Assembly: GCA_028821145.1 (NCBI GenBank)
Contig: JAPPHC010000048.1
Coordinates: 1 to 63,799, forward strand
Length of the DNA stretch: 63,799 nt
Direction of reading: 5' to 3'
From: Gammaproteobacteria bacterium
Lineage (GTDB): Bacteria > Pseudomonadota > Gammaproteobacteria > Steroidobacterales > Foliamicaceae
The notes beneath the pieces were generated by a model that had not been told where the DNA came from, made no database searches, and saw nothing but the letters and a program-made list of their open reading frames with translations. How positions within the stretch are numbered: the first letter of the stretch is position 1; every line of letters begins with the position of its first letter. Below, piece after piece: positions 40,306-56,443 of the stretch. A program made the position numbers and the translations under genes.

Positions 40306-40824
40306 TCAGAAATTGAGGGCGAGGGTGCGCGGTTGACCGAATGAGGGCAGGCTGATGAGGTGCAGTTGTCCCGGACCGAATTCCGCCAGGTTGAGTGCGG
40401 CGGGGTCCCATTCGGCCAACAGCGCGGACGCCAGGGTGGTGCCCGCCACGATGATCACGATTTTTCCGCGGTGCTGCCTGGCCAGCCCGCGCGCGAAGGC
40501 GGCGGGGTCCTCGATCAGCACGTCCGTAATGGGCTGCCCAAGGCTTTCGGAAAGCGCACGGACCGTCTCGCGCTCCGGTTCACCGCCGGCACTGAAGATG
40601 CCGGCCAGCAGATCGGGGGCGGCCAGGTTGCCCGCAAGCCGGCCCAGCGCTTCGGCGCGCGATCGCCCCGCGTTGCTGAGCGAAGCGGAGTCGCTGTCCT
40701 GACGCTCGGCGGACGTCAGCAGGAGGACCGTAGTCGTGGACTCGCTGCCCTGAAGTTGCCAGACAAGGATCAGCACGCCCGCCAGGAAAACGGCCGCCAG
40801 CAGGTTTCGGTAGCGCGGGCGCAT
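40306..40824 (-). CDS. Membrane-anchored degenerate histidine phosphatase-like protein
   Basis: 172 residues. A single N-terminal membrane helix (about 8-24) is followed by a domain that follows the histidine phosphatase layout: LSNAGRSRAEALGRLAGNLA matches the 'LT-G-QA' helix and FSAGGEPERETVRALSESLG the 'SS--RA--TA' helix. The catalytic RHG/RHA motif is replaced by LLTSAERQ (about 35-42), and the second catalytic His by a VAGTTLAS segment. It is therefore probably a non-catalytic family member exposed outside the inner membrane. It is divergent from the envelope cluster that begins at 40934. Confidence 0.65.
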   Translation of the reverse strand: MRPRYRNLLAAVFLAGVLILVWQLQGSESTTTVLLLTSAERQDSDSASLSNAGRSRAEALGRLAGNLAAPDLLAGIFSAGGEPERETVRALSESLGQPITDVLIEDPAAFARGLARQHRGKIVIIVAGTTLASALLAEWDPAALNLAEFGPGQLHLISLPSFGQPRTLALNF

Positions 40825-40933
40825 CAGTTCGCGCTTAGGGCGGCAAGCGACATGGCCTCGATAGTACTACTGCGATCTGCGTAAAATAAAGGCTGTTGCC
40901 GATACCCTTTCGCGCATGTGAGGCGAGTGACAC

Positions 40934-41128
40934 GTGGACCTGTTCAGCTTTTTCTTCGACAACGTGGGTGCGCTGTTCGCGCTCGCCTTCGTGCTGTTCA
41001 ACCTGGCTGCCTGGGTGATGAGGCGCGTCCGGCAAAAGCGCCAGCAGGAACGGTACGGACACTATCCGCCGGCGGTGCGGTCGGGCCGGCTGAATTACGA
41101 CGAGTACAGAAAGCGACGCGACGACTGA
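40934..41128 (+). CDS. Small single-pass membrane protein
   Basis: 64 residues from GTG 40934. One hydrophobic helix (about 10-29, VGALFALAFVLFNLAAWVM) is followed by a basic stretch (RRVRQKRQQER) and a polar tail ending YDEYRKRRDD. The positive-inside rule puts the tail in the cytoplasm. I do not recognise it. It is the first plus-strand gene of the envelope cluster. Confidence 0.6.
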   Translation: MDLFSFFFDNVGALFALAFVLFNLAAWVMRRVRQKRQQERYGHYPPAVRSGRLNYDEYRKRRDD

Positions 41129-41168
41129 TTGGCGCATCAAATGCCTAAAGGGCCCGGGGCCATGCCGG

Positions 41169-41177
41169 TGGTATGCT
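41169..41177 (+). promoter_or_regulatory. Putative extended -10 promoter element
   Basis: TG-G-TATGCT fits an extended -10 element, 30 bases before the ATG at 41208 of the Gly/Ser-rich lipoprotein. No -35 match is evident, as is common for extended -10 promoters. It could drive the lipoprotein-kinase-PEGA gene run. Confidence 0.35.
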
Positions 41178-41207
41178 AGTTTGAAATGTGAGGGTCGACC
41201 TACTGTA

Positions 41208-42365
41208 ATGAAAGCAACAGTGCGTATTTCAGGCTTTTTTGTGGCGCTCTCCGCAGTGCTGGTTCTGGCGAATTGCCAGACCACCGGAGGCGTTTCGTCT
41301 CCGTCCGGCGGCCCCCCGGTTTCGATGCCTTCACCCAGCGGCAGCTCGGGTTCCTCCGGGGGCTCGCAGGGTTCCATGGGCGGTTCCCAAGGTTCCATGG
41401 GCGGTTCGCAAGGCTCCATGGGCGGTTCGCAAGGCTCCATGGGCGGTTCGCAAGGCTCCATGGGTTCGTCCGGCGGTTCTCGCGGGTCGATGGGGGGCTC
41501 CATGGGCTCTTCCGGCGGTTCTCGCGGTTCCACGGGCGGTTCGCAGGGCTCCATGGGCGGATCGATGGGTTCAACCGGTGGATCACGTGGTTCCATGGGC
41601 GGGTCGATGGGTTCTGCAGGTGGCTCGATGGGCTCCATGGGCGGCTCCACGGGAACACCAGGCGGTTCTCGCGGTTCGATGGGATCGCAAGGCGGCACCC
41701 AGGGTTCGATGGGTTCCACGGGAGGCGCCAGCGGTTCGGCCGGCGGGCCTTCAGGCCGGCCGGGCGGTTCCGGAGGACAGCAGGCCGGTTCCACGGGAGT
41801 CGGCGGTGGCTTCGGAGGCGGGCAGGGCAGCGAGCCCGGCGGCAGAGGAGGTGCAGGCGGCACCCAGGGCTCGGGCGACCTCGATGGAATCCTGCGTGAA
41901 TCCATGGAGGGTTACGACCGCGAAATTGCCCGTGAGCGCGGCGCCATGGCGTCGGCCGGGCAGGGTTCCGCCGCCGGTTCCGGAGGCGCGGGCGGAATGA
42001 TCGGCGAGCCGGGCGGCTCCGGCGGGGCGATGGTGACCATTCCCAACGCCGCCGGCGGAGGCATTGGCGGTAGCGGTCAGGGCCCGGGCAGCGAATCGGC
42101 CGGCAGCAACGCAGGCGGAAGCAGCACCGGAAGCGGCGGCGGCTCCGGCGGGGGCGAAGGACAAGGCGGGCCGCTCGAAGACGGTACGGCGGGCGAGCAG
42201 CCGGAGACGAAGATTGAAATTCCGGAAGACATTCAGGAGGCTACCGGCAAGGAGGACCAGGTGGCGCGGCAGATCCGCGAAGCGGCGGAGCAGGAAGAAG
42301 ACCCCCGCATACGCGAGGCATTGTGGGACGAATATCGCAAGCACATGGGGCTGAAAACAAGATGA
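41208..42365 (+). CDS. Gly/Ser-rich repeat lipoprotein
   Basis: 385 residues from ATG 41208. A lipoprotein signal ends at the lipobox LANC (Cys near 23). Residues about 30-220 are nearly all Gly, Ser, Met, Gln and Arg in heptads such as GSQGSMG, GSRGSMG and GSMGSTG; 220-335 stay Gly-rich and likely disordered. The last 50 residues are charged and helical (IEIPEDIQEATGKEDQVARQIREAAEQEEDPRIREALWDEYRKH split across two helices). It may act as a flexible tether from the outer membrane. ATGA overlap with the next lipoprotein gene suggests coupling. No known family is recognised. Confidence 0.75.
   Translation: MKATVRISGFFVALSAVLVLANCQTTGGVSSPSGGPPVSMPSPSGSSGSSGGSQGSMGGSQGSMGGSQGSMGGSQGSMGGSQGSMGSSGGSRGSMGGSMGSSGGSRGSTGGSQGSMGGSMGSTGGSRGSMGGSMGSAGGSMGSMGGSTGTPGGSRGSMGSQGGTQGSMGSTGGASGSAGGPSGRPGGSGGQQAGSTGVGGGFGGGQGSEPGGRGGAGGTQGSGDLDGILRESMEGYDREIARERGAMASAGQGSAAGSGGAGGMIGEPGGSGGAMVTIPNAAGGGIGGSGQGPGSESAGSNAGGSSTGSGGGSGGGEGQGGPLEDGTAGEQPETKIEIPEDIQEATGKEDQVARQIREAAEQEEDPRIREALWDEYRKHMGLKTR
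41380..41463 (+). repeat. 21-bp tandem repeats in the lipoprotein gene
   Basis: Three perfect 21-base units (41401-41421, 41422-41442, 41443-41463; each starts GCGGTTCGCAAGG) follow one unit with two changes (41380-41400). Each unit encodes GGSQGSM. Slippage would change the length by seven residues and keep the frame. Confidence 0.85.
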
Positions 42366-43591
42366 ACCGGTTGATCACGACTCTCGGCCTGGCTGCCTGC
42401 ATCATTGTGCTGGGCGCCTGCACGTCCGCGCGCGAGGTCCAGTACACCCAGGTGGGGCTGCAGCGGGCGGAGGCCGAAATTGCACCGGAATCCCTGCTGA
42501 ACGTGGGCATCCTGGTGTTTGATGCGGGGCTGCCCGAAGGCGCGAGCGACCAGGAACTCAACGACCGTTTCATCTTTCCCGAGATTCGCCGCGCCGAGGC
42601 GCGCTTCATGCCATACCACCTCAAGAACACGCTTGAGACTACCGGCTATTGGGGGGCGGTAAGCGTCCTTCCCGAATACAGCCCGGTTGCGGATGTCGTG
42701 ATTTCGGGCCGGATCGACCAATCGGACGGCTACAGCGCGCAACTGCGTGTCGGCGCCTGGGACTCTTCCGGCCGGCAGTGGTTCGAAAACAACTATGAGA
42801 TGCTGGTCGCGGAGCAGGCCTACATTCGCAACACCGGTCCCGGCCAGGACCCGTACCAGAACATCTATAACCGGATCGCCAATGACCTGCTGCAGGCGCG
42901 CGCGCAGTTGAGTTCCGGCGATTTGCAGCGCGTGCGCGAGATCAGCGATCTGCGCTACGGACAGAGCCTGGTGCCGCAAGCCTTCAGCGGTTACCTGGAA
43001 GAGACCGGCAAGGGCCAGTATGAAGTCAGGCGCCTGCCGGCTGCTGACGAGCCCATGGTCAGTCGCATGCGCGAAGTGCGCGAACGGGAGTACGCGCTGA
43101 TCGACGCCGTCAACGAGCATTACGCCAACCTCTACTACGGTCTGGACCGGCCCTATACGGACTGGCGGCGGATGGCCCGTGAAGGCCGCCTGAGCTACGA
43201 GGAGATGCGCAGGTCTGCGAACACGCGCATGCTGCTCGGAGTCCTCGGGATTCTCGGCGCGGTTGCATACGAGGCCAGCGGTGGCGACAACATGGGCGTG
43301 ACCGGCACCATGATCCAGGGCGGCTTCATGGGAATACAGGGGAGCCTGAGCCGGCGCGAGGAAGCCAGGATGCACGCCGAGGCGCTGCGTGAGGTGGGCG
43401 AGTCCTTTGATGCCGAGGCCGAACCCATGGTAGTGGAACTCGAAGGCCAGACTCGCCGCTTGACCGGCTCCGCCGAGGAAAGGTTTCGCGAATGGCGCCG
43501 CCTGTTGCGGGAAATCTACGCCCGTGAGACCGGCGATCTTGAAACGCCGGGTGTGCAAGAGCCTGAGGGCACGTCCCTGCCGCGCTCCTGA
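42362..43591 (+). CDS. Uncharacterised lipoprotein of the envelope cluster
   Basis: 409 residues from ATG 42362, which overlaps the previous stop. The lipobox is VLGACT (Cys near 20). Residues 40-170 look like a compact alpha/beta domain (NVGILVFDAGLP, then VADVVISGRIDQSDGYSAQLRVGAWDSSGR), similar in style to LpoB/CsgG-like domains of envelope lipoproteins. A helical middle part, a hydrophobic glycine-rich stretch (about 295-335, LLGVLGILGAVAYEASGGDN) and an Arg/Glu-rich C-terminus follow. Function unknown; its place beside the kinase suggests it is part of the same envelope system. Confidence 0.72.
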   Translation: MNRLITTLGLAACIIVLGACTSAREVQYTQVGLQRAEAEIAPESLLNVGILVFDAGLPEGASDQELNDRFIFPEIRRAEARFMPYHLKNTLETTGYWGAVSVLPEYSPVADVVISGRIDQSDGYSAQLRVGAWDSSGRQWFENNYEMLVAEQAYIRNTGPGQDPYQNIYNRIANDLLQARAQLSSGDLQRVREISDLRYGQSLVPQAFSGYLEETGKGQYEVRRLPAADEPMVSRMREVREREYALIDAVNEHYANLYYGLDRPYTDWRRMAREGRLSYEEMRRSANTRMLLGVLGILGAVAYEASGGDNMGVTGTMIQGGFMGIQGSLSRREEARMHAEALREVGESFDAEAEPMVVELEGQTRRLTGSAEERFREWRRLLREIYARETGDLETPGVQEPEGTSLPRS

Positions 43592-43611
43592 AACGGACTC
43601 GAGAACGCCCC

Positions 43612-45945
43612 GTGCCCGGCGACTCGATGACCCGAAGAAAACAAGGCGAGATGCTGGCAACCCGGTTTCGGCTGGTGCGCCCGTTGGGCTCCGGCGGACT
43701 GGGCGAGGTCTGGCTTGCGGAAGATGTGCGTGAAGGCCGTGAGCGGGCCCTGAAGTTGCTGGCGGACGAACATGCACGGCATCCGGCCCATATCGATCGC
43801 TTCCGGCGCGAATTCTCCGTCGCCCAGTCGCTGGTCCACCCGGCCATCGTGCGTCCGGATGAGTTCCTGTCCGACGGCAACAGCCATTTCTTCACGATGC
43901 CCGTGCTGCCGGGCGGCCATGTCGGAGAGCGGTCCGGCGAACCCTGGAGCGCCGCCGCAAGGTGCCTGCTGCCGGTTTGCGACGCCCTGGCGTATGCGCA
44001 CCGCAAAGGCGTGGTACATGGCGATATCAAGCCGCAGAACATTCTGCTGGACGAGTCCGGCGCGGCCTGCCTGACGGACTTCGGCGCGGCCGAGCTGCCG
44101 GACGCAGCCGATAACGGTCGGGGCCGGCGTTCCGGAGGTTCGCTGGCCTATATGAGCCCGCAACGGCTTGAGGGCCGCCCGGCGCGGGTCAGCGATGACG
44201 TGTATGGGCTGGGCTGCGTCGTCTACGAGTTGTTGTGCGGCTTTCCGCCATTCGCGCCGGATATCAGCGAAGAGGCCATTCGCAGCGCGGAACTGGCGCC
44301 CCCCGCCGCCCCCGCGGGGCAGCCGCAACTTCCCGACGAGCTGGCCGAACTGGTTGGCGCGATGCTGGCGCGCGACGAGGACTCACGGCCGGTGACCATG
44401 CAGGCTGTGCGAACCGCCCTGGACGAAATACTGGCGGATTCCGCCACCACCGAAGCCCCGTCACAGGCCGCCGCCATTGTCGCGAGGGCGCGCGCCAGCG
44501 CCCACGCCGACGACGGAGCGCCCCCGCCGGCGCTGCAACGCAGTTCCGGAGTGCCCGTGTGGGTGGCCTACGCATTGGGAGGCCTTCTGCTGGCGGCGGC
44601 AGCGGTCCTGTTCTTCGTTTTGCCGCGCTTCGCCGAGGAGCGCGCAAGCCGGCGCCCACCTCCCGAGCGTATTGTTCAGCAGGCGGAGGCGCCCCGCCAG
44701 GACATGCAGCTGTTGAGAATGCAGCGCGATGCGGCCGATGCGGCCATGGGCGACATGTTGCAGGACCGGAATTATCTGGCTTCCCTGCAGCCTTCCCTGT
44801 GGTCGGGCGGCGCCTGGGAACAGGCCATTGCCGAGGAGGAGAAGGGGGACGACTTCTATCGCCGGCGCGAGTATCCCGACGCGCAGGGCGCATACGGAAA
44901 AGCGGGTGCGATGCTGCGTGAGCTGCGCGAACAGGCGCCGGATATTGGCCGCGGGGCCCTGGAAGAAGCGCTGCAGGCCATCGAATCGGGCGATCAGGCC
45001 GCCGCCCTGGCGGAACTCGAAAAGGCCGGAATACTTCTCGGAGCGACCGATCCGGAAGTGCAATCCGCGTCCCGGCGGGCGGCCCGGGTGCCGGAAACCA
45101 TGCAGGCCGTGGCCGAAGCGCGGGCCAGCGTGCGTGAAGGCGGCCTGGAGGAGCAGCGGACGGCCTGGCAGGCGGTGCTCCGGATCGACCCGGAACGGCA
45201 GTCCGCCCGCAGGGAGCTATCGGCGGTCAATGCACGGATCGATCGGCAATTGTTCAATTCGCGGATGTCGCGGGGACATGCCGCGCTTGGTGAGGGCGAT
45301 GTCGAAGCGGCCCGGACCGCGTTCGAGGCCGCCGCGAAACAGCGTCCGAACGATCCCGGGCCGGTCGAGGCCCTTGCCGCGCTGGAACTGGAGGAACGCG
45401 GGCAGCGGCTGGCGCAACTCCAGGCGGCCGCAATGGCGGGGAGGTTCGCGGAAGACTGGCCCAGGGCGGCCGTGAATTACCGCGGCATGCTGGAGATCGA
45501 CTCGAATATCGTCGCGGCGCAGCGCGGACTGGCGGAGTCGGAGCGGCGGGCGCGCCTGGACGACGCGCTGGAAAACACCATCGCCAATGCCCGGTCGCTG
45601 AACCGGGACGATGCCTGGCAAGACGGCAAGCGCCTGCTGGACGAAGCTGCGGCGATTCCCGATCGCGGTTCGCGGCTGGACGGGCAGATAGGACGTCTTG
45701 AGCAGGCCCTGACGGTGGCGGCCACGCCGGCGCCGGTGTGGCTGCGCTCCGACGGACTTACCGAGGTGACCATCTTTCACGTCGGCCGCCTGGGAAGTTT
45801 CGACAGTCGCATGCTTGAGCTCAGGCCCGGCGCCTACACCGCCGTAGGAACCCGCGACGGCTTCCGTGACGTGCGCCGCGAGTTCGTCGTGGCGCCGGAA
45901 GGACTGCCGGAACCGCTGGTTCTGATCTGCACGGACCCCATCTGA
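43612..45945 (+). CDS. Transmembrane serine/threonine protein kinase
   Basis: 777 residues from GTG 43612; ATG 43627 is an alternative. A Hanks-type kinase domain spans about 18-290: P-loop GSGGLG (26-31), Lys48 in RALKLL, Glu67, the catalytic loop HGDIKPQN (136-143, HGD instead of HRD) and DFG (156-158). These residues suggest it is active. One membrane helix (about 315-338) separates it from a 430-residue periplasmic part. This is rich in helical repeats (IAEEEKGDDFYRRREYPDAQ; ARTAFEAAAKQRPNDPG) like TPR units and ends in a short beta domain. It lies 20 bases after the lipoprotein gene and 17 before the FHA/PEGA gene. No PP2C phosphatase is seen nearby. Confidence 0.88.
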   Translation: MPGDSMTRRKQGEMLATRFRLVRPLGSGGLGEVWLAEDVREGRERALKLLADEHARHPAHIDRFRREFSVAQSLVHPAIVRPDEFLSDGNSHFFTMPVLPGGHVGERSGEPWSAAARCLLPVCDALAYAHRKGVVHGDIKPQNILLDESGAACLTDFGAAELPDAADNGRGRRSGGSLAYMSPQRLEGRPARVSDDVYGLGCVVYELLCGFPPFAPDISEEAIRSAELAPPAAPAGQPQLPDELAELVGAMLARDEDSRPVTMQAVRTALDEILADSATTEAPSQAAAIVARARASAHADDGAPPPALQRSSGVPVWVAYALGGLLLAAAAVLFFVLPRFAEERASRRPPPERIVQQAEAPRQDMQLLRMQRDAADAAMGDMLQDRNYLASLQPSLWSGGAWEQAIAEEEKGDDFYRRREYPDAQGAYGKAGAMLRELREQAPDIGRGALEEALQAIESGDQAAALAELEKAGILLGATDPEVQSASRRAARVPETMQAVAEARASVREGGLEEQRTAWQAVLRIDPERQSARRELSAVNARIDRQLFNSRMSRGHAALGEGDVEAARTAFEAAAKQRPNDPGPVEALAALELEERGQRLAQLQAAAMAGRFAEDWPRAAVNYRGMLEIDSNIVAAQRGLAESERRARLDDALENTIANARSLNRDDAWQDGKRLLDEAAAIPDRGSRLDGQIGRLEQALTVAATPAPVWLRSDGLTEVTIFHVGRLGSFDSRMLELRPGAYTAVGTRDGFRDVRREFVVAPEGLPEPLVLICTDPI

Positions 45946-45962
45946 AGCGGGAAGCGTGAGAC

Positions 45963-48383
45963 ATGGCGCGTGACGTGATTCTCGTGCTGCCTGAAGGGGA
46001 GCGCAGACTGGCGGAGGAGGAGCTGCCTGTCCTGCTGGGCAGCGGCGCGGGCGCGCACATCCGCCTCCCCGGACCGGCCGGCGCGCCGCCGGCTGCCAGC
46101 ATCAATCTCATTGACGACCGCGTTCTGGTGCAGTGCTATCCGGGTATTTCCGGCCTTTCACTGAACGGCGAGCCGATCAGCGGCGCCCGTTGGCTGGAGC
46201 AGGGCGACCGGCTTGCCATTGCCGGGGTCGAGGTAACGCTGGATTCGGTTTCTCCGGAAACGATGCGCCTGAATGTGAGCTACCTGGCGAGGGCATGGGA
46301 CACGCGGCCGCCCGAACCGGCGGACGACGAAGACGCCCCGGCGGCGATTGCGGTTCGCAGGCCCGCCGGGGATTCGCGTTCCGCGCCGGCGCACAAGGGC
46401 CGCCTGTGGCTGCGCCTGGCGGCGGGCGTGGTCCTGGCGCTGCTGGGCGGCAGCGCCTTGTTCGTGTTCACCGCCGAAGGCGTGCTGATCGAAGTGGAGC
46501 CCGCCGACGTTGCCGTTGAAGTTGACGCTCTGCTGCCCACTCCGCACGTGGGGACCCGCTATCTACTCTGGAAAGGCAGGTACCGGGTGCGGGCGGAACG
46601 GGAGCGCTACTACCCGCTGGACGAAGAGATCGAGGTGCGGGGCGGGGGCGGTCAGGAGTTTCGCTTCGCCATGCGGCTCCTGCCCGGACGGGTGGTCGTG
46701 GATGCCGTCGCCGGCGCGGAGATCCGCATCGAGGGAATGGACGAGGTGTTTTCGCCCGGCGAGGAAATTTCGCTGGACCCGGGCACGTACGCCCTTAACG
46801 TCAGCGCGTCCCGCTACAAGGACATGGACGTTCCGCTGGCCGTGGAGGGCGGCGGCGGACTGGAACCGTTCACGGCCGAACTGGAGCCGGACTGGGCGGA
46901 GATCACGGCCGGCAGCGATCCGCCCGGGGCTGAATTGCGCTCGGAAGGACAGATCCTGGGGGTAACGCCGGCGACCGTGGAATTGCTGTCCGGCGAGCGC
47001 ATGCTGTCGTTCTCAAGGCCGGGATTCGCCACGCATCGCGAACGGCTGACCGTGGTTGCGGGCTCGCCGCAGGTCCTGCCGACCATCCGCCTGCAACCTG
47101 CCGCCGGCGTGCTTCGGGTGCAGACCGATCCGCCCGGCGCCAGCATAACCGTGGATGGGGACTTTCGCGGAGGATCGCCTGCGACTGTTGAAGTGAGTCC
47201 GGACCGGGCGCACCGGGTCGTTGTGTCGCGGGCGGGCTACGAGTCGCAGGAGCGCACAGTGACGCTGGGGCGCGGCGCCGAGCAGTCCCTGAGCATTCGT
47301 CTCGAGCCGCGCCTGGGAACGATTCGCGTCTTGAGCCGCCCGCCCGGAGCGCAGGTCAGCGTCAACGGGCGGCCCGCGGGACGGACTCCGCTGGACCTGC
47401 AATTGCCCTCGACCGAGCAGCAGCTCGAATTCAGCCTGGAAGGCTACGTGGCGCAGTCGCGCGAGGTGGTGCCCCAGCCTGCCTATCCCCAGGAGGTGCA
47501 AGTCGAGCTCCTGACGCCCCAGCAGCAGATGCTGGCCGCCCAGCCCACCGAAATCGAAACCTCGCAAGGCGCGGCCATGATCATGCTGTTCCCCGGCGAG
47601 TTCGAAATGGGTTCGCAGCGCGGTTCGCAGGGATGGCGCAGCAACGAGGTGCGCCGCAGGATCAGGCTCACGAAACGCTACTACCTGGGCGTGAACGAAG
47701 TCACCAACCGGGAATTTCGCGCTTTCATTCCCAATCACACGTCCGGAGCGGAGCGCTTCCGATCGCTGGCGGCCGACAGCAGCCCCGCGGTGAACGTCGA
47801 ATGGCAGGCCGCCGCGGCCTTCTGCAACTGGCTGAGTTCGCAGGAGAACCTGCCGCTTCAGTATCAGAGCCGCGCCGGCCGGCTGATTCCGGTAGATGAG
47901 CCGGGCACCGGCTACCGCCTGCCGACCGAAGCCGAGTGGGTCTGGGCGGCCCGCTACCGGGGCGGCGCCGGTAACTCGCGCTACCCCTGGGGCGAGCGCA
48001 TGCCGCCTACGGCGCGCTCGGGCAACTACGCGGACCAGTCAGCCGGCAGCCTCGTTACCAACGTGCTGAGCGCCTACAACGACTACTTTCCCTTCACGGC
48101 CCCGGTCGGTTCGTTCCCGGCCAACTCGCTGGGCTTCCATGATCTCGGCGGCAACGTGGCCGAATGGACAGGCGATTACTATGGCACCGATACGCTTTAT
48201 CCCGACTTCGAGGTGGACCCGCGCGGTCCGCAGGAAGGACGCTTTCACGTGATCCGCGGCTCGGGCTGGCTGCACGGCACGTTGCGCGAACTGCGCTGGG
48301 CCTTCCGCGATTTTGGCGCCGAAGAGCGGCTCGATGTAGGATTTCGACTGGCGCGCTACGCCGAATTGCAGGAACCGGAATGA
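45963..48383 (+). CDS. Membrane protein with FHA-like, PEGA and FGE-fold domains
   Basis: 806 residues. The N-terminal 110 residues look like a degenerate FHA domain (LLGSGAGAHIRLPG, then GLSLNGEPISGARWLEQGDRL). One membrane helix (about 147-170) follows. The periplasmic part has at least three PEGA repeats (near 312 SDPPGAELRSEGQILGVTP, near 381 TDPPGASITVDGDFRGGSP, near 452 SRPPGAQVSVNGRPAGRTP). From about 535 there is a formylglycine-generating-enzyme-fold domain (GEFEMGSQRG, YRLPTEAEWVWAARY, NVAEWTGDYYG, VGFRLARYA). The catalytic cysteines of true FGE are absent, so it is likely a binding domain. The cytoplasmic FHA-like part could read phosphothreonine made by the adjacent kinase. Confidence 0.85.
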   Translation: MARDVILVLPEGERRLAEEELPVLLGSGAGAHIRLPGPAGAPPAASINLIDDRVLVQCYPGISGLSLNGEPISGARWLEQGDRLAIAGVEVTLDSVSPETMRLNVSYLARAWDTRPPEPADDEDAPAAIAVRRPAGDSRSAPAHKGRLWLRLAAGVVLALLGGSALFVFTAEGVLIEVEPADVAVEVDALLPTPHVGTRYLLWKGRYRVRAERERYYPLDEEIEVRGGGGQEFRFAMRLLPGRVVVDAVAGAEIRIEGMDEVFSPGEEISLDPGTYALNVSASRYKDMDVPLAVEGGGGLEPFTAELEPDWAEITAGSDPPGAELRSEGQILGVTPATVELLSGERMLSFSRPGFATHRERLTVVAGSPQVLPTIRLQPAAGVLRVQTDPPGASITVDGDFRGGSPATVEVSPDRAHRVVVSRAGYESQERTVTLGRGAEQSLSIRLEPRLGTIRVLSRPPGAQVSVNGRPAGRTPLDLQLPSTEQQLEFSLEGYVAQSREVVPQPAYPQEVQVELLTPQQQMLAAQPTEIETSQGAAMIMLFPGEFEMGSQRGSQGWRSNEVRRRIRLTKRYYLGVNEVTNREFRAFIPNHTSGAERFRSLAADSSPAVNVEWQAAAAFCNWLSSQENLPLQYQSRAGRLIPVDEPGTGYRLPTEAEWVWAARYRGGAGNSRYPWGERMPPTARSGNYADQSAGSLVTNVLSAYNDYFPFTAPVGSFPANSLGFHDLGGNVAEWTGDYYGTDTLYPDFEVDPRGPQEGRFHVIRGSGWLHGTLRELRWAFRDFGAEERLDVGFRLARYAELQEPE

Positions 48384-48751
48384 AGAAGGTCATCGCAGTC
48401 GCCGCCGTAATCGGCCTGGCAGTGGGCCTGACCTGGGCCGCCGAACGGGTGGGCGGCTGGCTGGGGTTCGCTCAGCAGGACAGGATCGTGGAGGACGCCG
48501 AACCCGGCAACGAAAGCGCCTCCCCTGGGAGTGGGGGTGTCCCGTCCTCCAACGAAACTCCCCTCGATGCGCCCGCCCGGGGAGAAGACGAAGCCCCCGC
48601 ACAGCAAGAACTTTCCGCCGAGGTCACTTCGATCGAGGACGACCTGGCCCGCATCGAGGAAGCGCTCGGCAGCGATGAGGTCCTGGAGGAGTTCACGCCG
48701 TCGGAGCCCCTGTCGGCGGACAATCCGGTAGTCTGGCCAACCGATATTTGA
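48380..48751 (+). CDS. Small membrane-anchored acidic protein
   Basis: 123 residues. An N-terminal signal/anchor (KKVIAVAAVIGLAVGLTWAA) is followed by a disordered, acidic tail with a predicted helix (EVTSIEDDLARIEEALGSDE). The Pro/Ser segment SPGSGGVPSSNET is encoded by a copy of the dispersed repeat. The start overlaps the stop of the PEGA gene (ATGA), so it belongs to that operon. No family is recognised. Confidence 0.65.
   Translation: MKKVIAVAAVIGLAVGLTWAAERVGGWLGFAQQDRIVEDAEPGNESASPGSGGVPSSNETPLDAPARGEDEAPAQQELSAEVTSIEDDLARIEEALGSDEVLEEFTPSEPLSADNPVVWPTDI
48527..48550 (+). repeat. Dispersed 24-bp GC-rich repeat, copy in the small anchored protein gene
   Basis: Reads GGGAGTGGGGGTGTCCCG followed by TCCTCC and matches the sufU copy at 20 of 24 bases. 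It lies in frame within the gene and encodes part of a low-complexity linker. Confidence 0.45.
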
Positions 48752-48767: not shown

Positions 48768-50261
48768 TCAGGTGCGAAGACGGATCCGGTAGTCCAGGTC
48801 CAGCCTTTCCGCCAGAGCGCGCAAGCGCCGCTGGACGGTGTTCCCGACCAGGATGTGGGCGCCTTCGGGCGCCGTCAGCACGAGTTCTCCCGGTTTCCGT
48901 TGCAGTCGGAATTGCTCGAGGACGCTGACGGCCCCGCCGGAAATCGTGTAGGCGAGGCGCATGGCCAGCCCGATGCAGACTGCCCGGCGTTTTTCCCTCT
49001 TGTCGACGAGTTGGCCGAGGCCCAGGCGCTTCAAGGCCGGGGTAATGGCGGCGTGTCGCGATGCGACGGCCAGCCCGAGCATGATCCGCTCGCGGTGATC
49101 GGCGCCGGTCAACGGCATCCGCAATATACGCAGGAACACCTGTTCGGCCCGGTAGTCGGGATGTTCGGACCAGCCGATGTCGGACAGGTGACAGGCAGCC
49201 AGCCTGAGCTTGTCCGGCACGACTCCTTCCAGCGCCGGCGCGATCCAGCCGGCCAGCAAGTCGCCCCCCGAACCTCCTCGGCCCATGCGGCGGGCTGCGC
49301 TCTCGCATAGCCAAAGCAGCGGGTCTATCTGCTGTTCGAGCGGAGTCAGGGCTTCGTACAGGCAGCCTTCGCGCAGGCCGTTGGCGGAGAACACGACCCG
49401 CTCGGCGCCGCTGCGTTCCAGCAGGCATTCCAGGGCGACCGCCGCAAAGGGCAGGGATTCCAGGCGGTCGGCCCGCAGTCCCTTGGCCGATTCCAGGCGC
49501 GGGCGGGGCCAGCCGGCCAGCATCGCGCAGAATTCCGAAGCGTCGCGGGCTTCCAGCGCATAGTGATGTATGACATGCAGGGGGTAGCCCGATTCGTCCA
49601 TGTGGATCCGGGCCAACGCCCGCCAGGAGCCTCCCACCAGGTATAGAGACTGCCGCTGCGCCCGCGGCAGCCAGTCGAGCCCGTCAAGCTGGTCCCCAAT
49701 GGCCTCTCGGCTTTCCCCAATAGGCTCCTCGCCGTTTCCGCGCACCGTGCCCAGCGGCAGCGATACGCGCTCGGCCACGCTCCCGTTGTCGAGAAGCGTC
49801 AGTTCCAGGCTGGCGCCGCCGAGATCGGCCGCAACGCCGCTCGCCCCGGGAATTGCGCTGAGGACTCCGCCGGCTGAAACTTCGGCTTCCCGGTCTCCCG
49901 TCAGCAAGCGGACGTCCAGGCCGCATTCGTTGCGCACGGTCTCGAGGAACTCCGGTCCGTTGCTTGCCTCCCGGACGGCCGCGGTCGCTACCGCCTGTAC
50001 ATCGAGAACCCCCATTTGCGGGCACAGTCGGGCGAACCGGTGCAGGCTTTCCAGGGCCATCCCGATGCCGTCTTCGGACATTCTTCCGGTCCGGTCCAGC
50101 CCGCGGCCCAGACCGCACAGTACCTTTTCGTTGAATATCGGCAAGGGCGCCCGCCCGCCGTTCTCGTAGACCACCAGGCGCACGGAGTTCGAGCCTATGT
50201 CGATCACGGCTACCGGCGCCTCGCTTGGGGTCGCGGGGCTGGTTCGCAATACGCCCGGCAC
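48768..50261 (-). CDS. ppx: Exopolyphosphatase (Ppx/GppA family)
   Basis: 497 residues. The actin-like ATPase fold has VIDIGSNSVRLVVYE (about 18-32), AVATAAVREASNG and GASGVAADLGGASLELTLL. It removes terminal phosphates from polyphosphate, or acts on pppGpp as GppA does; the C-terminal HD-like helical domain of about 190 residues fits either. It lies six bases after ppk on the same strand, as in E. coli, which favours Ppx. It converges on the kinase/PEGA operon. Confidence 0.9.
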   Translation of the reverse strand: MPGVLRTSPATPSEAPVAVIDIGSNSVRLVVYENGGRAPLPIFNEKVLCGLGRGLDRTGRMSEDGIGMALESLHRFARLCPQMGVLDVQAVATAAVREASNGPEFLETVRNECGLDVRLLTGDREAEVSAGGVLSAIPGASGVAADLGGASLELTLLDNGSVAERVSLPLGTVRGNGEEPIGESREAIGDQLDGLDWLPRAQRQSLYLVGGSWRALARIHMDESGYPLHVIHHYALEARDASEFCAMLAGWPRPRLESAKGLRADRLESLPFAAVALECLLERSGAERVVFSANGLREGCLYEALTPLEQQIDPLLWLCESAARRMGRGGSGGDLLAGWIAPALEGVVPDKLRLAACHLSDIGWSEHPDYRAEQVFLRILRMPLTGADHRERIMLGLAVASRHAAITPALKRLGLGQLVDKREKRRAVCIGLAMRLAYTISGGAVSVLEQFRLQRKPGELVLTAPEGAHILVGNTVQRRLRALAERLDLDYRIRLRT

Positions 50262-50267
50262 GGGAGC

Positions 50268-52535
50268 TTAGACGGCAGCTTTGACCAGGGTCGGGCGGGG
50301 TTTGTCTTCCGCGGAAGCGGAGTCCCCGGTCTCTGGAAACAGTTCGCCGGGCATGGCCGGCTGCGACTCCCGCAGGGCGCTGCCCCGGCCGGAAAGGCTG
50401 GGGTTGGTCATGAACCAGGTATGGGCGCTGAAATCGCCGGATTGATGATCCAGGCGGCGGTAAGCGCCGTCCGGTCCGAGTTGCCAGCTCTGCATCACGT
50501 CGAAGCGATTCGCCATCAGGACCTGCTCCACGAGTTGCCGCTTGACCGTCTCGTTCTCGATCGGCACCAGCGTCTCCACGCGATGGTGCAGGTTGCGGGG
50601 CATCCAGTCGGCGGACGATACGAAAACCTTGCTGTCGGTGGAGGGAAGCTGGTGGCCGGCGCCGAAACACATGACACGGGAGTGTTCCAGGAACCTGCCG
50701 ACCATGCTGCGCACCTGGATGTTCTCCGACATGCCGGGCACGCCCGGGCGCAGGCAGCAAATGCCCCGGACGTAGAGTTCGATCCGCACGCCGGCCTGGC
50801 TCGCCCGGTAGAGGCAGTCGATGATATCCGGGTCAACGAGCGAGTTGAGTTTGGCCCAGATCTCCGCCGGGCGCCCGGCGCGGGCATGGGCGACTTCATC
50901 CTCGATCAGTTCGACCAGACTGCTTTTCATTTGCGCGGGCGCGTAAACCAGCTTTTCCATGTCCTCCGGAGTCGCGTAGCCCGTCATGTAATTGAACAGG
51001 CGCGCGGTGTCGCGCCCCAGGGCCGCGTCGCAGGTGAAGAAGCTCAGGTCCGAATAAACGCGCGCGTTGATGGGATGGTAGTTGCCGGTGCCGAAATGCG
51101 TATAGGTACGCAGCTCTCCCGCTTCTCTGCGCACCACCAGCGATACCTTGGCGTGGGTCTTGAGTTCCATGAAGCCGTACACCACCTGCACGCCGGCGCG
51201 CTCCATCTCGCGCGCCCAGCGGATGTTCGCGGCCTCGTCGAAACGCGCCCGAAGCTCGACCATGGCGGTGACCAGCTTGCCGGCCTCGGCGGCGGCGATC
51301 AGCGCCTCGACGATGGGCGAGTCCTCGGAGGTGCGGTACAGGGTCTGCTTGATCGCCACGACCGCCGGGTCTTCGGTGGCGCGGCGCAGGAATTGCACGA
51401 CCACGTCGAAACTCTCGTACGGATGCTGCACCACGAAGTCCTTGGCGCGAATGGCGGCGAGGATGTCACCGCCGTATTCGCGGACCCGTTCGGGGAAGCG
51501 CACATTGAGCGGCTCGTGCTGCAGGTCGGGGCGCTGGTCCGTGACGATCTGATTGATGTCCGCCAGGCCCAGCATGCCGTCGATATTGAACACATGCGCG
51601 TGCGAGGCATCGAACGCCTTGAGCACGAACCGGCGGAAGTTCTTCGGCATGCCGGCCGCCACCTCTACCCGGATGACGTTGCCCCGGCGCCGCCGCAGCA
51701 GGGCGGACTCGAAGGTCCGCACCAGGTCCTCGGCTTCCTCGTCGATTTCCAGATCGCTGTCACGGCTGATGCGGAAAATACCGTGGCCGAGGATCTTCAT
51801 GCCGGGGAACAGCAGCCTGAAGTTGCGGGCGATGATTTCCTCGACGGCGACGAAGCGCAGGGCCTTGCCGGGCACCCGCACGAACCGCTCGATCTGGGGC
51901 GGGACCAGCACCAGGCCGTTGATCTCGTGCTTGTCCGCGGGCCGCATCAGCCGCAGCACGTACACGAGGCAGCCGGTCTGGATGAAGGGGAAGGGGTGCG
52001 CCGTATCGACCGCCTGCGGGGTCAGCACCGGAAACAACTGGTTCTCGAACCATCGTGAAAGCCACTCGCGGGCCCGCTGGCCCAGTTCCTCGGGGCTTAC
52101 CACCGACACTCCGGCGTCGCGGCATTCGGCCAGCAACTGCGAGCTGCGCCTGGATTGGGCCTTGAGGAGCTTCTTTACCCGTTCGCGTATGGCTTCGAGC
52201 TGTTCGCCGGGGGTCAGTCCGTCATCGCTGGTCTTGGTGACGCCCGCCGCCACCTGGGCCATGAGGCCGGCCGCCCGCACCATGTAGAACTCGTCGAGGT
52301 TGCTGGCGGATATGGACAGGAACCGCACGCGCTCCAGCAGCGGGTGGTTCTCGTTGCCGGCTTCCTCCAGCACCCGCGTGTTGAATTCCAGCCAGGACAG
52401 CTCGCGGTTGATCAGGCGGCCGGCGACGCGCTCGGCCTCGCTCAGCGCCCGCGGCTTGCCGGACGCAGGCGTCATTCGGGTGTTCCCGGATGGCGTGGAA
52501 TGTGCCTCATGATCGGAGTAGCATACAGGAGTCAT
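50268..52535 (-). CDS. ppk: Polyphosphate kinase 1
   Basis: 755 residues from ATG 52535, which has AGGA seven bases upstream; ATG 52475 (735 residues) is an alternative. It polymerises the gamma-phosphate of ATP into polyphosphate, reversibly, at the inner membrane. Family segments: LINRELSWLEFNTRVLEEA, FLSISASNLDEFYMVR, THFGTGNYHPINARVYSDLS (with the phosphorylated His) and MPRNLHHRVETLVPIE near the C-terminus. It is about 50-70 residues longer than E. coli Ppk, partly from the N-terminus. It is in operon with ppx and divergent from sixA. Confidence 0.95.
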   Translation of the reverse strand: MTPVCYSDHEAHSTPSGNTRMTPASGKPRALSEAERVAGRLINRELSWLEFNTRVLEEAGNENHPLLERVRFLSISASNLDEFYMVRAAGLMAQVAAGVTKTSDDGLTPGEQLEAIRERVKKLLKAQSRRSSQLLAECRDAGVSVVSPEELGQRAREWLSRWFENQLFPVLTPQAVDTAHPFPFIQTGCLVYVLRLMRPADKHEINGLVLVPPQIERFVRVPGKALRFVAVEEIIARNFRLLFPGMKILGHGIFRISRDSDLEIDEEAEDLVRTFESALLRRRRGNVIRVEVAAGMPKNFRRFVLKAFDASHAHVFNIDGMLGLADINQIVTDQRPDLQHEPLNVRFPERVREYGGDILAAIRAKDFVVQHPYESFDVVVQFLRRATEDPAVVAIKQTLYRTSEDSPIVEALIAAAEAGKLVTAMVELRARFDEAANIRWAREMERAGVQVVYGFMELKTHAKVSLVVRREAGELRTYTHFGTGNYHPINARVYSDLSFFTCDAALGRDTARLFNYMTGYATPEDMEKLVYAPAQMKSSLVELIEDEVAHARAGRPAEIWAKLNSLVDPDIIDCLYRASQAGVRIELYVRGICCLRPGVPGMSENIQVRSMVGRFLEHSRVMCFGAGHQLPSTDSKVFVSSADWMPRNLHHRVETLVPIENETVKRQLVEQVLMANRFDVMQSWQLGPDGAYRRLDHQSGDFSAHTWFMTNPSLSGRGSALRESQPAMPGELFPETGDSASAEDKPRPTLVKAAV

Positions 52536-52577
52536 GAACAATTCCTGGAAAGGAGGGCGTGTCGCCCGTGTTCCGGC

Positions 52578-53114
52578 ATGAAGCGCCTGTGGCTGCTTCG
52601 GCACGCCAAGGCCGGGCCGTATTCCGCCGACGATTTCGAGCGGGCGCTGGCCCCTCGAGGACGGAAGAACGCGCCCGCGATGGGAGAGAAACTGGCGGCC
52701 GCAGGATGCACTCCCGAAAGGATTCTCTGTTCCGCAGGACGCCGGGCGGTGGAGACGATGTGCGGTGTCCTGCCCAGTCTTCCCCCCGACCTCAGCATCG
52801 AGGTGATGCGGAGGCTTTACACCTTCAGCCCGGGCAACGTACTGCAGTGCCTGCGCGAGCTGCCGGAGGATACCGGCGACGTCATGGTGGTCGGTCACAA
52901 CCCGGCACTGCAGGAACTGGCGCTGTACCTGGCCGGCAGGGGCGAAGAGGATGCCTTCGCGGTGCTCCACGGAAAGTTTCCCACCTGCGCGGTGGCCGAG
53001 CTGGAGTTTCCCGAGTCGCCGCACACGGCGGACTGGGACCAGGGCAGCGCCTATCTTCGCCGCGTCCTGACGCCCCGCCCCCCGCGACACTTGCCCACCC
53101 CCCTGGTCGACTAG
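52578..53114 (+). CDS. sixA: Phosphohistidine phosphatase SixA
   Basis: 178 residues. The catalytic RHA motif is in LWLLRHAKAG (His9) and the second His in VVVGHNPALQEL. The conserved Arg is in CSAGRRAVET. SixA removes phosphate from the histidine of HPt domains (ArcB) and acts on PTS NPr. It is divergent from ppk and ten bases before the MotA/TolQ-like gene on the same strand. The nearest Shine-Dalgarno-like AAGGAGGG (52550-52557) is 20 bases from the ATG, further than usual. Confidence 0.9.
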   Translation: MKRLWLLRHAKAGPYSADDFERALAPRGRKNAPAMGEKLAAAGCTPERILCSAGRRAVETMCGVLPSLPPDLSIEVMRRLYTFSPGNVLQCLRELPEDTGDVMVVGHNPALQELALYLAGRGEEDAFAVLHGKFPTCAVAELEFPESPHTADWDQGSAYLRRVLTPRPPRHLPTPLVD

Positions 53115-53124
53115 CGAGCAATCG

Positions 53125-53922
53125 ATGAGAAGACAGTTACCGGTCGAATTCGTTTTTCAGATTTTTTCGCTGTTTCTTTCGGTGATCGTGGTGCACGCGA
53201 TGTACGTCGCGTGGATTCGCCCGCAGGCCAACGCGGTCATGGAAGAGCAGCGGATCATGCTGGAGCAGGAAGCCGACTACGTGCCCGAACGCTCCCTGTA
53301 CGTGATCGTGCGCGATTTCGAGCAGGAGGCCTGCCTGATCCTGGCGCTTTGGGCGCTGGCGATTATGGGCTACAAGGCCCGCGGGGCGCTGCGCGAGCGC
53401 TCGCTGCTGCAGCGCGATCTCCTGCCGCTGGCGGAAGGGGTGCGCATCCTGCCGGAGGACACGCGCGAGCACGCGCGCCAGTTGCGTGCGCTGCCGGAAT
53501 CGCAGCAGCGCCTGCTGTTGCCGCGCGTGCTGCTCAGCGCGCTGCAGCGGTTCGGCGCCACCGGCAATGTGCAGGACGTCTCGTCCGCCACCCAGACGCT
53601 GGTCAATGCCGAGGCCGAGCGGCTGGAGTCGGAACTGTCGATGATCCGGTATATCGCCTGGGCGATCCCCTCGATCGGTTTCATCGGGACCGTGCGCGGG
53701 ATAGGCCAAGCCCTGACGCTGGCCTATCGCGCCGTTGAGGGCGACATCAGCGGCGTGACCGAGAGCCTGGGCGTGGCTTTCAATTCCACCTTCTTCGCCC
53801 TGCTGGTCAGCATTTTCATCATGTTCCTGGTCCACCAGCTTCAATTGTTGCAGGAGCGACTGGTCTTCGAGACCTCGGATTACTGCGACGAACGGCTGAT
53901 CCGCCGCCTGCAGGGCGACTGA
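53125..53922 (+). CDS. MotA/TolQ/ExbB-family proton-channel protein
   Basis: 265 residues with four membrane segments (about 8-30, 66-83, 170-195 and 212-236) and a cytoplasmic loop of about 85 residues between the second and third. The family signature is AIPSIGFIGTVRGIGQALTLAYR in the third helix, with FNSTFFALLVSIF in the fourth. Such proteins form pentameric ion channels that drive flagella, TonB or Tol systems. Ten bases after sixA and 18 bases before the Hsp70/FHA gene, with a vWA protein next: the vWA protein's N-terminal helix probably plays the ExbD/MotB part. Confidence 0.9.
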   Translation: MRRQLPVEFVFQIFSLFLSVIVVHAMYVAWIRPQANAVMEEQRIMLEQEADYVPERSLYVIVRDFEQEACLILALWALAIMGYKARGALRERSLLQRDLLPLAEGVRILPEDTREHARQLRALPESQQRLLLPRVLLSALQRFGATGNVQDVSSATQTLVNAEAERLESELSMIRYIAWAIPSIGFIGTVRGIGQALTLAYRAVEGDISGVTESLGVAFNSTFFALLVSIFIMFLVHQLQLLQERLVFETSDYCDERLIRRLQGD

Positions 53923-53940
53923 GCCGGGGGGCGTCAACAA

Positions 53941-55356
53941 ATGGCGCTGGTCGCGCTGGAAGTCAATGGAGCGGCGCTGGTGGGCGCTACCTCCGCCGGA
54001 GTGCTGTTCAACGAACCGGGCGTGGCGCTGGTGCAAAGGCGCCGCGTGGCTTTCGGGCGCGAAGCGGTCGACGAGGCGCGGCGCGACCCCGCAAGCAGTT
54101 ACCGGAATTACTGGGAACTGCTGTCGGACGAACCGCTGCCCCGGCCGGCAAAGGGATTTCGCAGCTATGCCGACCTCGCCCACGGTCAAATGCAGGTGCT
54201 CTGGAAGCGCTTCCGGGATTCCGTGGGAGACATCAGCGGTGTGGTCCTGGTTATTCCGGCCGGCGTTGCGGAAGACCGTCTTGCGCTGCTGCTGGGGATC
54301 GCCGAGGAAGCCGGGCTGCCGGTGGCCGGGCTGGTCGAAAGCGGAGTGGCCGCGGTGCGCGGCGCCGCGGCGGGCCGCGCCTGCCTGCACATGGAAGCAA
54401 CCGCCGAACGTCTGGCGGTGTCCCGGCTCGCGGCGGGTGACGGGCGAATCCGGCGCGAGGAGATCCTGTTCGACGGCCGTCCCGGATTGCGGCATCTGCG
54501 GGCGGCCATGACCGGCTACGTTGCCGGCCGCTTCGTGGCGGGTTCCCGCTTCGATCCGCTGGACCTGCCCGCAACCGAACAGGAGCTGGCGGGGCGACTG
54601 GATGCCTGGCTTGAGGCGGTCCTGTCCGGCGGCGAACTCAGTATTCAACTTGAAGAGGCTCCTGTGACCGCTACCGCAGTCCTCACTCGCGATAACTATC
54701 TTGCTTCGATCGAGCGGCTGCTGGGAGCCGCGGGGAACCGTCTGCGATCGTGGTGCACGGGTCCCGGGGCCGCGGACGTATACCTGTCGGGAGCCCTGGC
54801 GGAGGCCCCCGGCTGCGCCGAGGTTTTTGCGCGCCTGCTCGCCACGGAGGTCCAGGTCCTGCCGGCAGGCGCTGCGGCATTGGGCGCGCTGGAGCGGTTC
54901 ACGCCGACGGCGGGCGCGAAGGACCGATACGTATTGCTCAAGTCCCTGCCGGCCGTTGAGTCGGCGGACGGCCCGGACACGACGCGCACAGCCCGGCCGG
55001 ATGCCGGCGCACTGCCGGCGGCCGCCGGCAACGGGGAAGCGGGAGAGCGAACGCCGACACACGTCGTGTTCGATGGCCGGGCCTGGCGCATCGGCGTGGA
55101 AGGCCTGCATCTCGGATCGTCGCCGCAACCCGGGGGCCTGTCGATCGTGCTTTCGCCGGAAGGCGGGATTTCGCGAAACCACTGCACTGTCGTACTGGAG
55201 AACGGACAGGCGGTATTGCATGATCACAGCCGATACGGAACCAGCCTGAACGGCGCCCCGGTGGCCGATTCCGCGCCGTTGCGCGGTGGCGACGTGGTGG
55301 GCGTGGGACCGCTGGAGTTCCTGATCGCGCGCGAGGTGGGTGGCGATGGCTCGTAG
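53941..55356 (+). CDS. Hsp70/actin-like protein with C-terminal FHA domain
   Basis: 471 residues. Residues 1-330 follow the layout of Hsp70/MreB-like ATPases (VALEVNGAALVGATSAGVLF; VVLVIPAGVAEDRLALLLGIAEEAG; then VYLSGALAEAPGCAEVFARLL near 280). The first phosphate loop lacks the usual DxG, so ATP use is uncertain. The FHA domain at about 365-465 has LHLGSSPQPGG, GISRNHCTVV and SRYGTSLNGAPV, the residues that bind phosphothreonine. It lies between the channel protein and the vWA protein and overlaps the latter by 17 bases. It could respond to the kinase encoded 8 kb upstream. Confidence 0.82.
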   Translation: MALVALEVNGAALVGATSAGVLFNEPGVALVQRRRVAFGREAVDEARRDPASSYRNYWELLSDEPLPRPAKGFRSYADLAHGQMQVLWKRFRDSVGDISGVVLVIPAGVAEDRLALLLGIAEEAGLPVAGLVESGVAAVRGAAAGRACLHMEATAERLAVSRLAAGDGRIRREEILFDGRPGLRHLRAAMTGYVAGRFVAGSRFDPLDLPATEQELAGRLDAWLEAVLSGGELSIQLEEAPVTATAVLTRDNYLASIERLLGAAGNRLRSWCTGPGAADVYLSGALAEAPGCAEVFARLLATEVQVLPAGAAALGALERFTPTAGAKDRYVLLKSLPAVESADGPDTTRTARPDAGALPAAAGNGEAGERTPTHVVFDGRAWRIGVEGLHLGSSPQPGGLSIVLSPEGGISRNHCTVVLENGQAVLHDHSRYGTSLNGAPVADSAPLRGGDVVGVGPLEFLIAREVGGDGS

Positions 55357-56443
55357 GCGTTTTCACGTATTCAGCATGTCGTTTCTGGACATCATTTCCT
55401 GCGGCTTCGGCGCGGTCGTGCTGTTCTTCGTGATCATCAACGCCCAGGTGCGCCTGCGGGCCGATGCCGAGCGCATCGATCTGCTCAGCGAATCCACGCG
55501 GCTGGAAGAGGAGGTCCTGGAAGGGCGAAAGGACCTGCTGCACTTACGCGGCGAGCGCGACACGCTCGACGAGCGCCGCGCCACGGCAATCGAGGAGTTG
55601 AGAAAGCTGCGCGAACGCCGTGCCGCCTTGCTGGCGGAGCTGGCGGAATACGAGCGCCTGGGGACGCAGAGCCAGGAGTCGGTCGAGCGGCTTCGGGCCG
55701 ACGTGGACCGGCTCAGGGAAGTGCAGGCGGAACTTGAGGCGCGGGTCGCCGAGGCGGAGGAAGGAACGGGGCAGCGGGTGCGTGGCTTTGAAGGCGAGGG
55801 CGCGCGGCAATACCTGACGGGCATGCAGATGGGCGGCGACCGCGTAATGATTCTCGTGGATGCGTCCGCCAGCATGCTGGGGCGCACCTATATCGACGTC
55901 TTGCGGTTTCGCCTGATGGACGAGGAACTCAAGCCCCGGGCTCCCAAATGGGTCCAGGTCGTGAATTCGGTGGACTGGATCACCACGCGTCTGGAGCCGC
56001 AGCAGAGATTTCAGGTCTACATCTTCGGGGTGGAGCACAGAAGCATCCTCGAGGGCACGGACGGCGAGTGGCTGAGCGTGGCCGACGGGGCGCGGGTAGG
56101 CGAAGCGATCGAGGCCCTGCGCAATTTTGCGCCGAGGGGCGGGACCAGCCTGCATGCGGCGATGCGCGCCATCCGCGCCATGCAGCCGCTGCCGGACAAC
56201 GTGTACCTGTTGACCGACGGACTGCCGACGCAGGGCGCCAGCCCTCCCTCGCGGGTCGGATGGGTGGATACGCGGGCGCGCGAACGGTTCTTCACCCGCG
56301 CGGTGCGCGACCTTCCTTCGGGGATTCCGGTCAACGTGCTGTTCTACCCGATGGACGGGGACCCGACCGCCACCGGCTACTACTGGCTGATGGCCTCGCA
56401 GTCCCGGGGATCCTTCGTCAGCGTTTCGCGCGACTGGCCGTGA
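55340..56443 (+). CDS. vWA-domain protein with ExbD/MotB-like membrane helix
   Basis: 367 residues from GTG 55340; ATG 55346 is an alternative. A single membrane helix near the front (SFLDIISCGFGAVVLFFVII) carries an Asp (Asp17) at its beginning, as in the stator helices of ExbD and MotB. A coiled coil of about 110 residues (38-145, many ERRA/LRER heptads) leads to a periplasmic vWA domain. Its MIDAS is intact: DASAS (about 174-178), the Thr in GGTSLHA and the Asp in LLTDGLPTQG. Directly preceded by the MotA/ExbB-type gene and the Hsp70/FHA gene. It probably uses metal-dependent binding to an envelope partner. Confidence 0.85.
   Translation: MAMARRRFHVFSMSFLDIISCGFGAVVLFFVIINAQVRLRADAERIDLLSESTRLEEEVLEGRKDLLHLRGERDTLDERRATAIEELRKLRERRAALLAELAEYERLGTQSQESVERLRADVDRLREVQAELEARVAEAEEGTGQRVRGFEGEGARQYLTGMQMGGDRVMILVDASASMLGRTYIDVLRFRLMDEELKPRAPKWVQVVNSVDWITTRLEPQQRFQVYIFGVEHRSILEGTDGEWLSVADGARVGEAIEALRNFAPRGGTSLHAAMRAIRAMQPLPDNVYLLTDGLPTQGASPPSRVGWVDTRARERFFTRAVRDLPSGIPVNVLFYPMDGDPTATGYYWLMASQSRGSFVSVSRDWP

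Follow-up and report, generated by a model that had tools for sequence, protein, structure and literature searches.

The window analysed in this study, i.e. the whole 63,799-nt stretch of contig JAPPHC010000048.1 from a gammaproteobacterial assembly, carries two groups of plus-strand genes that are the halves of one conserved operon. This operon encodes two lipoproteins, a transmembrane (TM) Ser/Thr kinase, a PEGA/FGE protein, a MotA/TolQ/ExbB-type channel subunit (referred to as MotA), an Hsp70-like protein with a C-terminal FHA domain and, in its common form, two vWA proteins (vWA1 and vWA2). With a probability of roughly 0.55, the products constitute a force-generating machine that is driven by ions and spans the envelope; in many lineages, its cytoplasmic side would be set by threonine phosphorylation. 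As judged from sequence, an ion-driven envelope machine is supported by the gene layout and the signature residues of the stator. The kinase/FHA layer is optional and not the core of the system.

The operon genes are inherited in a nearly all-or-none fashion. When 117 relatives were screened, a strong MotA match (E ≤ 1e-40) was obtained in 99, all of which also carried the PEGA/FGE gene (99/99, E ≤ 1.1e-39) and a vWA gene (99/99, present only as a fragment in G026), and lipoprotein 2 and the C-terminal part of the kinase protein were detected in 97 and 96 of these carriers, respectively. Among the 18 relatives lacking a strong MotA match, 11 of which belong to three genera (g12, g14 and g30), G066 (70% complete) strongly matched the PEGA/FGE, vWA, lipoprotein 2 and kinase-part sequences. 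The others gave no match or weak ones, i.e. to PEGA/FGE in G008, G022, G043 and G101 (E 1e-23 or weaker), to vWA in G008, G022 and G055 (E 1e-10 or weaker) and to the kinase part in G109 (1e-22). In a first set of 118 loci, which counts some genomes twice, the gap between the PEGA/FGE and MotA genes was below 700 bp in 109/109 loci outside the genus of the window. After addition of 40 loci and removal of duplicates, the same was true for 109 of 112 distinct complete loci, and the gene set is likewise present in L188 and L215, where MotA is shifted to the operon end, after vWA2. The original prediction had regarded the two halves as a single system, and both their co-occurrence and their adjacency bear this out.

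In the genus of the window, the PEGA/FGE and MotA genes are 4.7–9.6 kb apart (nine loci from seven genomes), with ppx, ppk (minus strand) and a sixA-like gene (plus strand, 52578–53114) lying between them; in the window, these three genes span positions 48768–53114. Since the halves form a single operon elsewhere and the ppx-ppk-sixA genes lie between them solely in this genus among the loci read, the layout of the window is best explained by the splitting of an older operon at the level of the genus. For the same reason, ppx-ppk-sixA were rejected as members of the system. The halves had been described as separated only by ppx-ppk, which is correct as to these two genes but has to be amended by the sixA-like gene and the restriction to one genus. 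In part of the genus, an additional long open reading frame (ORF) on the minus strand lies between ppx and the gene of the small TM protein (L052:10382-13312, L055:10156-13176 and L056:2196-4982).

The gene set originally proposed was incomplete, because vWA2 also belongs to the system; in the assembly of the window, it is located on a separate contig (G000:C15:23832-24761). Outside the genus, it follows vWA1. It was detected in 107 of 114 loci, at a distance of at most 300 bp from vWA1 in 106 and of 355 bp in L089. The seven loci without it comprise two of the window's genus as well as L085, L112, L135, L147 and L217, in which the examined stretch stops near vWA1. A second MotA gene relocated to the side of vWA2 in the window's genus was considered and rejected, as the neighbours tested encode DUF1295 (L181, L183) and DUF899 (L182) proteins and no channels. 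One member of the genus, G008, carries vWA2 (C171:2433-3365, L183) but gave no strong match to MotA, the kinase part, lipoprotein 2 or vWA1, reflecting either loss or missing contigs. At G092:C15:1-1068, a vWA match is interrupted by six in-frame stops, and an intact copy is present on another contig of the same genome.

The residues expected of a stator are conserved. T189 and T222 of MotA were retained in 84/84 aligned sequences, and the Asp motif of the N-terminal helix was recognised in 79/83 vWA1 and 79/80 vWA2 proteins. As for the five misses, two ORFs begin past the Asp residue and three retain it. The D-x-S-x-S pattern was present in all vWA1 (83/83) and vWA2 (80/80) proteins. This combination resembles a motor type predicted in 2025, in which a TolQ-like channel with a conserved Thr is paired with vWA proteins bearing a transpore helix with a conserved Asp (PMC12204202). 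Shared features are the TolQ-like channel with its Thr, the lack of an adjacent tolR/exbD gene and a pair of non-identical vWA genes whose products bear a TolR-like helix with the Asp, a likeness at the level of these features (PMC12204202). Consistently, PF02472 (ExbD/TolR) was not found in the ten window proteins scanned with Pfam. In contrast to the present operon, section 8 of the published account, which deals with this motor type, names no associated kinase, FHA, PEGA/FGE or lipoprotein genes (PMC12204202).

The kinase layer was compared across 114 complete distinct loci, obtained from 167 after exclusion of 34 incomplete loci, 15 duplicates and four loci without MotA. The window's own entry was left out as a duplicate, since its MotA is identical to that of L072 over the last 200 residues; L072 and L059 stand for the genus. 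The kinase of the window has an intact catalytic triad (Lys, HGD and DFG). In the 114 loci, the triad was intact in 55 and changed in nine, and in the remaining 50 no kinase domain was found by profile between the lipoprotein 2 and PEGA/FGE genes; in L032, the Lys residue appears as a K-to-R change in one alignment and intact in another, the alignment being unsure at this position. The locus of Exilibacterium tricleocarpae R142 (L141) is one of the form without a kinase domain. The channel/vWA/PEGA-FGE/lipoprotein core was retained in the 59 loci whose kinase domain was not found or is changed, and phospho-signalling is therefore not part of the core. The prediction of a kinase-controlled, ion-driven envelope machine thus holds with respect to layout and the intact kinase of the window but cannot be extended to kinase control as a general property.

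Where the kinase is intact, so is the FHA site. Both Ser and His of the C-terminal FHA domain were conserved in 55/55 loci with an intact kinase triad vs 6/59 without (Fisher 4e-26, a value that overstates the association because the loci are related to each other), and a co-occurrence of the FHA and kinase families had been anticipated. Scoring by FHA profile (≥ 90) gave 54/55 vs 7/59. In 18 of the 59 loci without an intact triad, the Hsp70-like/FHA gene was not detected at all. Of the six loci with an intact FHA site and a non-intact kinase triad, L080 and L186 carry another kinase in the locus. In a three-gene tree of 82 loci, a set that includes the window and excludes L071 and L056 (whose stretch or contig ends before the kinase position), nine independent pairs were compared, of which 5–6 were concordant, none opposed and 3–4 without difference (median p 0.031). 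An intact kinase and an intact C-terminal FHA site are thus present jointly and, by sequence criteria, tend to be retained or to disappear as a pair. Genes for PP2C phosphatases occur close to the operon in 17 loci, upstream of it in 14 and downstream in three; the 17 loci include the query L069 (Pfam-supported) and one genome twice (L068 and L090).

The original prediction counted two FHA-type readers, the first of them as degenerate; both domains are indeed FHA-like by profile, and only the C-terminal one has a recognisable reader site. The N-terminal domain of the PEGA/FGE protein had no Pfam match; by profile, it aligned to the intact FHA domain (hhalign E 3.9e-5, probability 71), and its top PDB matches were FHA proteins (EmbR, E 0.002). 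No phosphate-reader site was seen by eye in this domain in any relative, and a loose S-x-x-H pattern within residues 26–90 was matched in 3/73 sequences (L080, L147 and L188), at the level of the pattern only. The N-terminal domain hence looks degenerate in all members, and a role of both domains as phosphate readers was rejected. The phosphothreonine-binding site of FHA domains consists of Ser, His and Asn residues and a loop Arg. In the C-terminal FHA domain of the window, the S, H, D and N residues of the site are present.

The FGE domain is probably not an enzyme. Its presumed active-site stretch, for which we take the catalytic Cys pair to occupy the position known from active FGE, was located by pattern at 45 sites among 83 proteins, none of which contained Cys (0/45), and an active FGE was rejected on these grounds. 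The domain matched the GldK model of NCBIfam with E 4.1e-29 (102 bits, below the cut-off of 350) and PorK chains with E 1.9e-14, true FGE chains scoring somewhat better.

Several observations weigh against the proposed machine or its phosphorylation layer. L097, L127, L135 and L192 depart from the joint pattern, combining an intact FHA site with a non-intact kinase triad. For the 114-locus set, a quickly built tree based on MotA and vWA1 gave long-branch warnings; it implied at least 11 changes in the kinase state and 10 in the FHA state, and eight independent pairs yielded 4–6 concordant, no opposed and 2–4 indifferent cases. The median p of 0.0625 (range 0.031–0.125) in this larger set is above 0.05. 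The loop Arg after the conserved Gly was present in 13 of 61 proteins with Ser and His and is absent from the window, so that phosphothreonine binding by the C-terminal FHA domain is not certain. As for the operon, 2.8 kb of other ORFs separate PEGA/FGE and MotA in L220, and vWA2 was found in 9/9 genomes of the window's genus at a distance from the operon, with two copies in G004 and G007. Finally, lipoprotein 2 had no Pfam, NCBIfam or PDB match.

The individual parts that had been predicted were confirmed by Pfam, TM and lipobox analyses. Operon gene 1 (41208–42365; this and all following genes are on the plus strand) encodes a Gly/Ser-rich low-complexity lipoprotein with the lipobox LANC and is followed by the gene for lipoprotein 2 (42362–43591, lipobox LGAC). 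A gene immediately 5' of lipoprotein 2 was present in 107 other loci, with a lipobox-like motif within the first 120 residues in 66/107, and most of 40 inspected products were rich in Gly, Ser, Gln or Pro; relatives of lipoprotein 2 contained a lipobox in 77/115 cases, using a crude pattern. The kinase protein (43612–45945) comprises a kinase domain (Pkinase, E 3.7e-39), a single TM segment at about residues 318–336 and a TPR-like and C-terminal region, the TPR matches being weak. The PEGA/FGE protein (45963–48383; Pfam PEGA 6.4e-42, FGE 1.2e-41) consists of the degenerate FHA-like domain, one TM segment (residues 152–170) and, behind it, three PEGA stretches and the FGE-fold domain; no lipobox was noticed in it. 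A small protein with one TM segment (48380–48751) has a small ORF as its counterpart at the same place in many loci.

In the second half, the channel subunit (53125–53922; PF01618, MotA_ExbB, E 9.9e-15) precedes the gene for the Hsp70-like protein (53941–55356), whose C-terminal FHA domain was recognised with E 2.4e-9 and whose N-terminus gave only a weak profile match to Hsp70 (DnaK chain 8w1m, E 5e-5). vWA1 (55346–56443) is composed of a single N-terminal, transpore-like TM helix with Asp (codon at 55388–55390), a coiled coil and a vWA domain with DxSxS, matching vWA models with E 4e-5 to 8e-5, below the Pfam cut-off. ATGA or longer overlaps had been reported for both halves; they were confirmed for two ATGA junctions (42362–42365 and 48380–48383) and one of 11 nt (55346–55356), but the remaining junctions are gaps of 10–20 nt. 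A gene akin to the threonine-dehydratase-like gene of the window (39301–40275; L037:16496-17473 and others) is found near the operon in several lineages; its position is upstream in the genus of the window and downstream in loci of the Woeseiaceae type.

Relatives of the window's MotA were detected (E ≤ 1e-20) in 37 of 369 sampled genomes of the class, six of them weakly (1e-21 to 1e-30), and in 16 of 398 sampled genomes of the phylum. A scan of named genomes returned at least 496 relatives among at least 596 candidate stretches, and the best 80 relatives were retained; among the matches listed were Woeseiaceae, Pseudomonadales, Exilibacterium tricleocarpae R142, Desulfobacterales, Deltaproteobacteria and Thermoanaerobaculia. 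A MotA identical to that of the window is encoded by the metagenome-assembled gammaproteobacterium L071, and bins of this kind are presumably derived from sponges. Divergent second copies of the operon, in which no kinase domain or Hsp70-like/FHA gene was found, are present in two large genomes (L041 and L060). Viral spread was rejected, since only one of 13 candidate stretches in viral contigs encodes a MotA relative. In this IMG/VR contig (L151:5929-6777), the gene stands alone among phage-tail-like genes, and the other operon genes were not found within its 8 kb.

These data can be accommodated in the following working model, in which we infer complex assembly, ion use, the direction of force, the phosphorylation targets and the cargo. 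MotA-like subunits would form an inner-membrane ring enclosing the transpore helices of vWA1 and vWA2, and ions passing the helix Asp and the Thr ring would rotate or shift the vWA pair. The periplasmic coiled coils and vWA heads may then act on a frame built from the PEGA/FGE protein together with the periplasmic portion of the kinase protein; this frame would be tied to the two outer-membrane lipoproteins. In many lineages, including the window's genus, the cytoplasmic kinase domain is predicted to phosphorylate one or more threonines, and the Hsp70-like/FHA protein could recognise this mark on the cytoplasmic side of the motor, thereby coupling or releasing the latter.

One alternative, which we consider unlikely, though worth keeping in mind, holds that the system is primarily a damage sensor, in which the lipoproteins and the FGE/PEGA protein perceive outer-membrane damage and signal through the kinase to the FHA protein, which switches the motor on. 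TagR has an FGE-type fold. The TagQ-TagR-PpkA-Fha pathway of type VI secretion contains the same kinds of parts, i.e. an outer-membrane lipoprotein, an inner-membrane kinase and an FHA protein (PMC11881912, PMC12607579), and TagQRST-PpkA-Fha as a whole is similar in this respect (PMC11881912). However, PpkA bears a vWA domain on the kinase itself (PMC1262709), whereas the vWA proteins are separate here and a motor channel is present. The type VI marker VipA was found in only 7/117 relatives, six of them among the 99 carriers, so that a type VI secretion accessory was rejected; nor was VipA found in the window's own assembly (66% complete). Moreover, the core is kept in the 50/114 loci in which no kinase domain was found in the operon, and kinase-based sensing can therefore not be the basic role everywhere.

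A similarly low likelihood is assigned to a secretion or surface-motility machine, in which the motor would transport cargo or adhesins across the outer membrane or along it and the kinase would gate assembly only. The type IX secretion system (PorKLMN/GldKLMN) also combines a motor driven by the proton motive force with an FGE fold lacking the catalytic Cys, PorK acting at the PorLM motor as a docking hub (PMC12421860). The FGE domain of the window resembles GldK (below the cut-off) and PorK and, like the latter, has no Cys at the sites located. In contrast, neither GldL nor GldM was among the NCBIfam matches of the ten window proteins, the PEGA/FGE protein is TM-anchored, and the partners here are vWA proteins. 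The Agl-Glt machinery of Myxococcus likewise combines a single MotA-like subunit with two partners and includes an FHA protein and TPR proteins, but its partners AglQ and AglS are of the ExbD/TolR family (PF02472) and its FHA protein carries a TonB domain (PMC3169522); neither was found in the ten window proteins scanned. In addition, none of the genes in the conserved order was recognised as encoding cargo, although no search aimed at outer-membrane barrels was made.

A Zorya-like system for anti-phage defence is highly improbable. It would account for a MotA-like channel with an accessory set, and the kinase domain matched PADLOC defence kinases, perhaps owing to mere general kinase likeness. 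The PADLOC search, however, yielded no ZorA or ZorB match, and the channel, FHA and PEGA/FGE proteins as well as the lipoproteins remained without any match; for the vWA proteins, only LmuB was matched, weakly and within the coiled-coil stretch. The vWA proteins and the kinase also distinguish the operon from Zorya, and the system is present in 99 of the 117 relatives, with most absences confined to three genera. That the halves are unrelated modules and neighbours by chance, as their separation in the window's genus might suggest, can be dismissed in view of their joint presence and adjacency in other lineages.

For the favoured model of an ion-driven trans-envelope force machine, the original claim of an undescribed system stands in part. 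No description of the whole kinase/FHA/PEGA-FGE/lipoprotein set was found among open-licence papers, but the motor core was predicted in 2025 (PMC12204202). New in comparison with that vWA motor type are the remaining operon genes, the optional kinase/FHA layer and their joint presence. At somewhat less than even odds, the operon may define an undescribed class of machines, in which a proton- or sodium-driven 5:2 motor would use vWA grippers on a periplasmic PEGA/FGE frame and be switched by its own kinase via an Hsp70-fold FHA protein serving as a clutch at the cytoplasmic face. If the model is correct, a stator-type motor with an operon-encoded kinase and phosphate reader would provide a direct case of a phosphorylation-controlled trans-envelope motor and would reveal the attachments of the recently predicted vWA motors. 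Lineages that naturally carry or lack the kinase layer offer a ready comparison.

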